Positions 35,583 to 38,500 of a DNA stretch of 64,000 nt are shown here, in pieces. The position numbers and the translations under genes are program-made. The DNA comes from Streptomyces sp. NBC_00536 (GTDB lineage Bacteria; Actinomycetota; Actinomycetes; Streptomycetales; Streptomycetaceae): NCBI RefSeq assembly GCF_036346295.1, contig NZ_CP107819.1, forward strand, positions 6,076,001 to 6,140,000, given 5' to 3'. The notes below the pieces were generated by a model. It was not told the origin of the DNA. It searched no databases and was given only the letters and a program-made list of their open reading frames with translations. Within the stretch, counting starts at the first letter, position 1; each line of letters starts with the position of its first letter.

Positions 35583-38500
35583 ATGTTGAATGAGTCCGAG
35601 GAATTCACTCCCGAAATCAATGTCGCCTCCGAAGTCGGTGGAACGCAGGGCGAAAGTCCTGAAGGCGCGACGTCGTGGCAGCAGCGCCTGGCCGGCCTCA
35701 CCGAGACCGAGCAGCACGCCGCACTGCTGGAATGGGTGTCCTCGCTGGCATCCGCCGCACTGCGGGACGCGGCCCCCGACCGTCTCGACCCCCACCGTCC
35801 CTTCCTGGACCTGGGCTTCGATTCGCTCGCCGCGGTCGACCTGCACGCCAGGCTCGTCGCCGGAACCGGCCTGCGACTGCCGGTCACCCTGGCCTTCGAC
35901 CACCCCACCCCCGCGCACCTCGCCCGCCACCTGCACGCGGCGGTCCTCGGACTGACCGGGCCCGCCGAGGCGCCCGTCGCCGCCGCGGCCGGCAGCGACG
36001 AACCCATCGCCATCGTCGGCATCGGCTGCCACTTCCCCGGCGGCGTACAGTCCCCCGAGGCGCTGTGGAACCTCGTCGAGACCGGCACCGACGCCATTTC
36101 CGCATTTCCCACCGGGCGCGGCTGGGATCTCGACGCGCTGTACGACCCGGACCCCGACCGGGCCGGCACCAGTTATGCCCGCGAGGGCGGATTCCTGCAC
36201 GACGCCGACGCATTCGACGCGGCATTCTTCGGGATATCTCCGCGCGAAGCCCTCGCCATGGACCCGCAGCAGCGACTCCTTCTCGAAGCGTCCTGGGAGG
36301 CATTCGACCGCGCCGGAGTCGACCCCGCCGCATTGCGCGGCGATCAGGTCGGCGTATTCGTCGGCGCCGAAACCCAGGAATACGGTCCCCGGCTCCAGGA
36401 CGCCACCGACGGATTCGAGGGCTACCTCGTCACCGGAAACGCGGCCAGCGTCGCCTCCGGCCGTATCGCCTACACCTTCGGATTCGAAGGCCCGACGGTC
36501 ACCGTCGACACGGCCTGCTCCTCCTCGCTCGCCGCCCTCCACCTCGCCGTCCAGGCACTGCGCACCGGCGAATGCTCCCTCGCTCTCGCGGGCGGCGTCG
36601 CCATCATGGCGAGCCCCGGCTCGTTCGTCTCCTTCAGCCGCCAGCGCGGCCTGGCCCCCGACGGCCGCTGCAAGCCGTTCGCGGCCGCCGCCGACGGTAC
36701 GGCGTGGGGCGAGGGCGTCGGCATGCTGCTGGTCGAACGGCTCTCCGACGCGCGCGCCAAGGGCCACCACATCCTCGCGGTCGTCCGTGGCTCCGCCATC
36801 AACCAGGACGGCGCCAGCAACGGCCTCACCGCACCCAGCGGTCCGTCCCAGCAGCGCGTCATCCGCCAGGCCCTCGCCAACGCCGGCCTGTCCGCCGCCG
36901 AGGTCGACGTCGTCGAGGCGCACGGCACCGGCACCCGGCTCGGCGACCCGATCGAGGCCCAGGCGCTCCTCGCCACCTACGGCCAGGAGCACACCGAGGA
37001 CCGGCCGCTGTGGCTCGGCTCCCTGAAGTCGAACATCGGCCACACGCAGGCCGCCGCCGGTGTCGCCGGGATCATCAAGATGATCATGGCGATGCGGCAC
37101 GGAGTGCTGCCCCGGACCCTGCACGTCGACGAGCCGACCCCGCACGTCGACTGGGAGGCCGGAGCGGTCACCCTGCTGACCGAAGCCGTGGAGTGGCCCG
37201 AGTCGGACCGCCCGCGCCGTGCGGGCGTGTCCTCCTTCGGCATGAGCGGCACCAACGCCCACGTCATCGTCGAAGAGCCGGAGGCCCAGGACCGCGACGG
37301 CACGCGCACGACCGATGGGCAAGCGCCCGGTCTCCTGCCGTGGGCGCTCTCCGCCAAGACCCCCGAGGCCCTCCGCGCCCAGGCGCGCCGGCTGAGCACC
37401 ATGATCGCGGCGCAGCCGCACGTCACCCCCCGCGACATCGGCCACTCCCTCGCGACCACCCGAGGCCGCTTCGAGCAGCGCGCCGTCGTCCTCGGCGACG
37501 ACCGCGAGACGTTCCTCACCGCACTGCACGCCCTCGCCGAGGGCAACGACACGCCCTCCGTGGTCCAGGGCGCACCCGAACCGGGCAAGCTCGCCTTCCT
37601 CTTCACCGGCCAGGGCAGCCAGCGCCTGGGCATGGGCCGCGAACTGTACGAGACCCACCCGGTGTTCGCCGACGCCCTCGACGACGCCTGCTGGTACCTG
37701 GACGAGCAGCTCGAACTCCCGCTCCTCGACGTCCTGTTCGCCGAACCGGACAGCCCCGAGGCCGCACTTCTGCACCAGACCGCCTACACGCAGCCGGCGC
37801 TGTTCGCGGTCGAGGTCGCGCTGTTCCGTCTGGTCGACAGCTGGGGCCTCAAGCCCGACTTCGTCGCGGGTCACTCGATCGGCGAGATCGCCGCCGCGCA
37901 CGTGGCCGGGGTGTTCTCACTGGAGGACGCCTGCATGCTCGTCGCCGCGCGCGGCCGCCTGATGCAGGCGCTGCCTGGTGGTGGCGTGATGATCGCCGTG
38001 CAGGCGTCTGAAGCTGAGGTCCTGCCGCTGCTGACGGACCGGGTGAGCATCGCCGCGATCAACGGCCCGCAGGCCGTGGTCGTCGCCGGTGACGAGGACG
38101 CGGCGGTCGCCATCGCGGAAAGCTTCGAGGCCGGTGGCCGCAAGACCAAGCGGCTGTCCGTCAGCCACGCGTTCCACTCGCCCCACATGGACGGCATGCT
38201 GGAGGAGTTCCTCCGCGTCGCCCAGGTGCTGGATTACGCCAAGCCCACCCTCCCCGTCGTCTCGCTCCTCACCGGCACCACCGCGACCGCCGCCGAACTG
38301 ACCACCCCCGAGTACTGGGTGCGCCATGTCCGGGACGCCGTACGGTTCCTCGACGGCGTACGCACCCTCCACCAGCGCGGCGTACGCACCTTCCTGGAGC
38401 TCGGACCGGACGCGGTGCTCACCGCCATGGCACAGGACTGCGTCGACCCGCAGAGCACCGCCTTCGCCCCCGCGCTGCGCTCCGGCCGCCCGGAGCCGAC

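Follow-up and report, generated by a model that had tools for sequence, protein, structure and literature searches.

A lone N-terminal acyl carrier protein as the probable trans-charged loading module of an arginine-primed, ECO-02301-type polyketide synthase in Streptomyces sp. NBC_00536

The stretch of DNA that was analyzed (the window, 64,000 nucleotides) corresponds to positions 6076001 to 6140000 of the 8.66-Mb contig of Streptomyces sp. NBC_00536 and contains, on its plus strand at 35583–59972, the first gene of a giant polyketide synthase (PKS) array of the antifungal type, g058, which encodes a loading acyl carrier protein (ACP) and extension modules 1–5. The product translated from position 35583 has 8129 residues. 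The loading ACP is encoded at 35682–35966 (plus strand; Pfam PP-binding at 35733–35933), and the codon for Ser81, the phosphopantetheine attachment site within a GFDSL motif, lies at 35823–35825 on the same strand. In a Pfam scan of the first 339 residues, PP-binding covers residues 51–117 and a ketoacyl-synthase (KS) begins at residue 140, with a weak Thiolase_N match that overlaps the KS interior; no acyltransferase (AT), KSQ, ligase, or GNAT domain was found ahead of KS1. Module 1 is of the composition KS-AT-KR-ACP, and four further modules follow on the same protein. In each of the eight other PKS subunits of the array (g059–g066), a stretch of 31–34 residues with abundant Lys, Arg, and Glu precedes the first KS and was taken, on visual inspection, for a docking helix; g058 has no such N-terminal helix and is the sole subunit of the nine with an ACP in that place. 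The Pfam scan, the translation, and the comparison of subunits thus bear out an earlier note on this DNA, which had described a protein that begins with only an ACP (Ser81), without AT, KSQ, ligase, GNAT, or docking helix, and its statement that the Cys of KS1 is intact also holds (TVDTACSSS). A second in-frame ATG is present at 35571, but a start at 35583 appears likelier because an SD-like GGAG precedes it, because relatives conserve the residues that follow the second Met, and because one relative (L072) has no ATG at the upstream position.

The loading ACP is preceded by a conserved peptide, S-x-(D/E)-F-x-x-E, encoded at 35595–35615 (plus strand). Among 22 loading-ACP sequences, the window's included, the first 11 codons of g058 (window positions 35583–35615) are conserved, with Ser5, Phe8, and an acidic residue (Asp or Glu) at position 7 in all 22 and Glu11 in 21; the spacer that follows is very variable in length, with large indels. 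In 21 of the 22 sequences, Asp7 is encoded by GAT. GAT is an unusual codon for such GC-rich DNA, and it is therefore conceivable that the constraint acts on the DNA or RNA and not on the peptide. The N-terminal peptide may be a peptide tag or a translation or regulatory element.

The nine PKS genes are collinear on the plus strand from 6111583 to 6248165, an array of 137 kb, the second of them (modules 6–7, plus strand) occupying 60056–64000 of the window and continuing to 70309 when the numbering of the window is extended beyond its end (the window frame). They encode 26 extension modules, all of which contain KS, AT, KR, and ACP; a DH is present in 15 of the 26, one of which (module 22) also has an ER. 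The AT signature is YASH in modules 12, 19, and 20 and HAFH in all others, and the last PKS protein ends in a TE. A separate loading PKS, which the earlier note had held up as the alternative to starter loading on g058, was not found and is rejected, as the 26 KS domains all lie in the nine collinear genes, none being left over for such a subunit, and g058 has no N-terminal docking helix.

Several genes that could take part in the supply of a starter lie in the flanks of the array. A type II thioesterase gene (25370–26065, plus strand) marks the upstream end of the cluster, and a glycosyltransferase gene (34204–35322, minus strand) precedes g058; by comparison of gene order with the table in PMC8312574, these occupy the positions of ECO-02301 ORF1 and ORF8, respectively. 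The earlier note had predicted that a discrete AT or a ligase would be encoded beyond the window, and both are present: the discrete acyltransferase gene g067 lies directly after the last PKS gene (window frame 172239–173243, minus strand) and is followed by genes for an ABC transporter, by four genes of the dTDP-rhamnose type, by a type II thioesterase gene, and then by the acyl-CoA ligase gene g075 (window frame 179954–181357; 467 residues). The amine oxidase gene g076 comes after g075, then genes for a PPTase, a phosphoesterase, a regulator of the LuxR type, and a carboxyltransferase, and lastly g081, which encodes an amidinohydrolase of the agmatinase family. By homology, g075 is the predicted starter acyl-CoA ligase and g076 a predicted amine oxidase of the arginine monooxygenase type; each is 80% identical to its counterpart in S. 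rubrisoli, and that of g076 corresponds to the amine oxidase listed in the published table. The product of g081, a predicted amidinohydrolase, passes the cut-offs of two agmatinase models. Three adjacent genes, g082–g084, encode an AMP-binding protein, a PLP aminotransferase-fold protein, and an acyl-CoA ligase and are a probable C5N (aminohydroxycyclopentenone) trio; relatives of the PLP protein (68–74%) are present in 7 of 21 genomes but are not tied to the cluster there, the one in G019 being about 3 Mb away from it. Since a home-made gene caller called no carrier-protein-sized gene between 6.098 and 6.273 Mb, the starter donor is probably a CoA ester; a Pfam scan of 31 flanking genes detected no carrier domain.

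Homologs of g067 were collected at 57 loci in titled genome records, a set from which the window's own record was possibly left out, and loading ACPs were sought in the genomes of 36 of these AT loci. An AT was classed as belonging to an arginine pathway when a relative (at least 55%) of the amine oxidase or of the ligase was encoded nearby, as is the case for 39 of 58 sequences including that of the window, six of them (L041–L043 and L045–L047) being classed by the ligase alone. At 30 loci, the identity of the AT to g067 reaches 64% or more, and each of the 21 of their genomes that were searched yielded a single matching ACP (129–214 bits; best other ACP, 98 bits; the window's own 26 extension ACPs, 53–88 bits against the loading ACP). 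All 21 matches open their reading frame, with at most 58 residues to an upstream stop, and are followed by a KS with TACSSS. Nine more distant arginine-pathway loci, a count that includes L043, L046, and L047, which were placed neither with nor without an N-terminal ACP, gave such an ACP in four cases, within the locus for L044 and L052 and elsewhere in the genome for L041 and L042; none was found for L045 and L060. The distance between the AT and the loading ACP is 137 kb in NBC_00536 and, assuming that search contig C1 is the named contig, about 140–153 kb in S. lavendulae, S. olivoreticuli, Streptomyces sp. S465, and S. violaceusniger.

A tree was constructed from 94 columns of 72 ACPs, comprising 22 arginine-type loading, 8 other N-terminal loading, and 42 extension ACPs; the sample of macrolactam-type loading ACPs had been widened from one to four, L096, L097, and L099, which have about 490–500 residues of open frame ahead of them, were for that reason treated as extension ACPs, and L094, whose GLHSL motif falls outside the search pattern, was not included. 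The phylogenetic comparison that the earlier note had proposed places the ACP of the window inside the arginine-type loading group, all 22 members of which (the window's and 21 others) lie on one side of a branch (99/93), apart from the 42 extension ACPs, which lie on one side of another (99/98); the grouping with extension ACPs that would have told against the note's reading was thus not seen. Both splits are starred, and many inner forks are unsupported. In the AT tree, g067 likewise falls within the arginine-pathway group, and the AT of the divergent arginine-pathway locus L052 branches with the other group. It may be mentioned that the N-terminal loading ACPs of L044 and L094 have His in place of the Asp of GxDSL (GFHSL and GLHSL, respectively).

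The AT encoded by g067 carries the Pfam domain VinK_C (E 1.9e-25) and is absent from the 34 matches obtained with the general AT profile (E 0.001). In the PDB, the sequences that match it best, 5czc, 5czd, 7f2r, and 8h6s_A (E about 1e-99), are deposited as malonyl transacylases and are, we assume, VinK. The loading ACP, in turn, has its best match in 8h6s_C, a PKS chain (E 9e-25) of an entry that also matches g067 and is presumably the complex of VinK with the vicenistatin loading ACP. Although the closest database relatives of g067 are named ACP S-malonyltransferase, a malonyltransferase function was rejected, VinK_C being present. Leu138, at what we take to be the site of the malonate-binding Arg of FabD, is Leu in 33 of the 39 arginine-pathway ATs.

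Three residues that differ between g067 and VinK follow the gene context closely, the sequences being grouped for these counts by context and not by the 64% identity cut-off, which L040 just misses. Glu142, which aligns with a Met of VinK, is located 29 residues after the catalytic Ser, at a position presumed to line the pocket in malonyl-CoA:ACP transacylases; it is present in all 39 arginine-pathway ATs as against 3 of the 19 others (L018, L057, and L059). It should be noted that L018 is an arginine-type locus cut by a contig end and counted among the 19, whereas L057 and L059 count against a tracking of Glu142 with the arginine-pathway genes. Val222, a Met in VinK, is found in 38 of the 39 (Ala in L052) and in 2 of the 19 (L018 and L048). 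The contacts of VinK with its carrier protein that are named in a passage of PMC6164871, Arg153, Met206, and Arg299, correspond to Arg160, Tyr213, and Arg306 of g067 in the PDB-match alignment; with chain index and VinK number offset by one, the three VinK positions there are indeed Arg, Met, and Arg. Arg is present at the first and last of these positions in all 58 AT sequences, and Tyr213 is present in 39 of 39 arginine-pathway ATs but in only 1 of the 19 others (L018). However, the AT tree provides only two independent contrasts for a test of residue against gene context (sign test p 1), so that descent alone could explain the pattern of Glu142, Tyr213, and Val222; the pattern of the first two in arginine-pathway ATs is a modest new lead. 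A tentative proposal, to which we would give rather less than even weight, is that the three residues form a switch relative to VinK, in which Glu142 would read the guanidinium group, Val222, beside the catalytic His, would shape the pocket, and Tyr213 would tune the choice of loading ACP, and that the S-x-D-F-T-P-E peptide, set apart by its variable spacer, would be a tag for recruitment of the AT or an element of translation start.

The AT of L060 (Phytohabitans flavus), a divergent arginine-pathway member, has Cys in the column of the catalytic Ser (Ser113). At L041–L043 (Lentzea and Umezawaea), an AT with Glu142 is accompanied by a ligase relative of 61–63% and a ureohydrolase of only 36–38%, and no amine oxidase is present in the flank examined; these organisms possibly use a different route to the starter.

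The domain anatomy, the gene content, the homologies, and the positions in the trees were observed directly. Together they make it very probable, by analogy, that an aminopolyol polyene PKS of the ECO-02301 type is primed here from arginine and that the lone ACP of g058, charged in trans, serves as its loading module. The substrates, the order of the steps, and the trans-acylation are drawn from related systems. The arginine monooxygenase g076 would produce 4-guanidinobutyramide, which a hydrolase encoded elsewhere in the genome would convert to 4-guanidinobutyrate; the ligase g075 would form its CoA ester, and the VinK-like g067 would move the acyl group onto Ser81, from which KS1 would take over. 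After 26 extensions, g081 would remove the amidino group. The precursor route is modeled on that described for azalomycin in PMC5082578, which proceeds through arginine monooxygenase, amide hydrolase, and CoA ligase, and the loading step on azalomycin results in PMC5518293, where the purified ligase Azl4 and acyltransferase Azl5 put 4-guanidinobutyryl on the loading ACP in vitro. With respect to the amide step, a search for the CN_hydrolase family gave no match in the cluster and nine genome-wide. One of these, at 1.513 Mb, adjoins a second amine oxidase that is 61% identical to g076 (L068:7266–8963 for the oxidase and 9002–9802 for the hydrolase, both minus strand, at 1.51 Mb); the two are probably an arginine catabolic pair, and the amide step could be assigned to this CN hydrolase, 4.6 Mb from the cluster. 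A second amidinohydrolase, 77% identical to g081, is encoded at 3.02 Mb (L070:7397–8389, minus strand). In view of this pair and the second amidinohydrolase, the pathway may be partly shared with arginine catabolism.

The removal of the amidino group is most likely a late event, by analogy with related pathways, but the literature disagrees as to whether deamidination occurs before or after the chain is built, and the present cluster frames that disagreement. In the early order, the amidinohydrolase would act first on 4-guanidinobutyryl-CoA and the same AT would then load 4-aminobutyryl; the gene for g081 does sit inside the cluster, and a passage in a review (PMC8944477) states that the amidinohydrolase of ECO-02301 acts before loading. 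This statement conflicts with the late deamidination of desertomycin and mediomycin in PMC4737276 and PMC5704753: a dstH deletion strain produced guanidino desertomycin B in amounts matching those of the wild-type product (PMC4737276), the substrate of DstH and of Medi4948 is the completed polyketide (PMC4737276 and PMC5704753), and it has been argued that an aminobutanoyl starter would cyclize (PMC4737276). Early deamidination is considered unlikely.

A greater departure from arginine priming would be loading of the vicenistatin type, in which a stand-alone carrier protein bears a β-amino acid or dipeptide during its assembly and a VinK-like AT then transfers it. The VinK_C domain of g067 and the matches of the AT and the ACP to chains of one PDB entry are in keeping with such a system, but the Pfam scan and gene calls described above revealed no carrier domain or carrier-protein-sized gene near the array, the AMP-binding enzymes are accounted for as the starter ligase and members of the probable C5N trio, and the trees place the ACP with the arginine-type loading ACPs and the AT with those of arginine pathways. 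On these grounds, β-amino-acid loading is rejected as highly improbable. The earlier note had named two classes of starter; the guanidino- or amino-acyl class stands, whereas the β-amino-acid macrolactam class does not, and the stand-alone ACP that it suggested was not found near the array. That the N-terminal ACP is a leftover, KS1 being primed directly or by another PKS subunit, might be thought from the lack of an attached AT but is scarcely credible given that the ACP with its Ser is kept in the window and 21 relatives and that g058 has no docking helix, the array no unassigned KS, and KS1 no KSQ partner ahead of it.

With arginine-derived priming of g058 as the preferred reading, a product can be predicted from the domain sequences. 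In KR12 (g061, module 12; window frame 90781–95766), Gln replaces the catalytic Tyr (GNQAPGN), and a ketone is therefore expected at module 12; DH6, which lies in the window, and DH11 are without the YGP motif and look inactive. If these three domains are taken as inactive, the predicted rhamnosylated C5N amide would be C70H108N2O20 (1296.75), and if all domains were active the formula would be C70H106N2O18. The mass of ECO-02301 is about 1297. Arginine-primed polyene clusters can be dependably recognized by a single ACP at the N-terminus of the first PKS combined with a gene for a VinK-like AT some 137–153 kb distant, at the opposite end of the array, which helps where draft genomes break such clusters, and Glu142, Tyr213, and Val222 are candidates for a switch between guanidinobutyryl and β-amino-acyl loading.

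ECO-02301 is a product of 26 modules. Its cluster in Streptomyces aizunensis NRRL B-11277 shares with that of NBC_00536 an order that begins with a thioesterase, regulators, membrane proteins, a glycosyltransferase, nine PKS genes, and the discrete AT, continues with an ABC transporter, a rhamnose-type sugar set, a thioesterase, the ligase, and the amine oxidase, and concludes with a PPTase, a phosphoesterase, a regulator, a carboxyltransferase, and the amidinohydrolase. The likeness was established by way of a published table for Inha-neotetrafibricin, which gives the ECO-02301 homologs gene by gene (PMC8312574); on gene content and order, the NBC_00536 cluster appears to match the ECO-02301 type. 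All 23 non-PKS genes of the table (ORF1–32) have counterpart pairs, in the same order, between NBC_00536 and S. rubrisoli DSM 42083. The identities measured with DSM 42083 are within 5 points of those published, which are for strain Inha501, in 16 of the 23 pairs; in the other seven (g050, g051, g067, g068, g070, g072, and g074) they differ from the Inha501 values by 6–8. No counterpart of the C5N trio was found in the three S. rubrisoli stretches compared, and the passages on the neotetrafibricin table (PMC8312574) list no C5N genes, in contrast to NBC_00536 with its probable trio. ECO-02301 is described as having a C5N part in passages of PMC8466323 and PMC4525017, so that C5N genes would be common to both clusters, although the trio in NBC_00536 is only probable.

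Other arginine-primed systems resemble NBC_00536 in part. An arginine-derived starter, as is proposed here, is used for clethramycin/mediomycin, linearmycin, and neotetrafibricin; the linearmycin and neotetrafibricin clusters also have nine PKS genes, whereas clethramycin/mediomycin and Inha-neotetrafibricin are products of 27 modules as compared with 26 in NBC_00536. Kitasatospora mediocidica (L082) has a homologous loading ACP, and mediomycin undergoes the late deamidination proposed for NBC_00536 (PMC5704753). The linearmycin cluster of S. nojiriensis differs in having no glycosyltransferase or C5N genes. In azalomycin F biosynthesis, AzlA has an ACP-only loading module that is charged in trans, as proposed for g058 (PMC5518293), but it combines this with one iterating module with DH, ER, and KR, whereas in g058 the KS-AT-KR-ACP of module 1 is followed by four more modules. 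The cloned azl cluster, as described in PMC5082578, has the amide hydrolase and the ligase and no arginine monooxygenase; that of NBC_00536, by contrast, has a monooxygenase-type gene and a ligase and no CN hydrolase. The vicenistatin proteins VinK and VinP1 belong to the same families as g067 and the loading ACP, and there too a discrete AT charges an N-terminal ACP. VinK and g067 share the two ACP-contact Arg residues and differ at residues 142, 213, and 222; the vicenistatin donor is a dipeptidyl group on the carrier protein VinL and the product a macrolactam, whereas NBC_00536 is assigned to the guanidino- or amino-acyl class. The ECO-02301, azalomycin, and vicenistatin families already provide examples of an ACP-only start that is charged in trans, and, because its gene content and order match the ECO-02301 table and it has the rhamnose set and the probable C5N trio, the NBC_00536 cluster would represent a known system.
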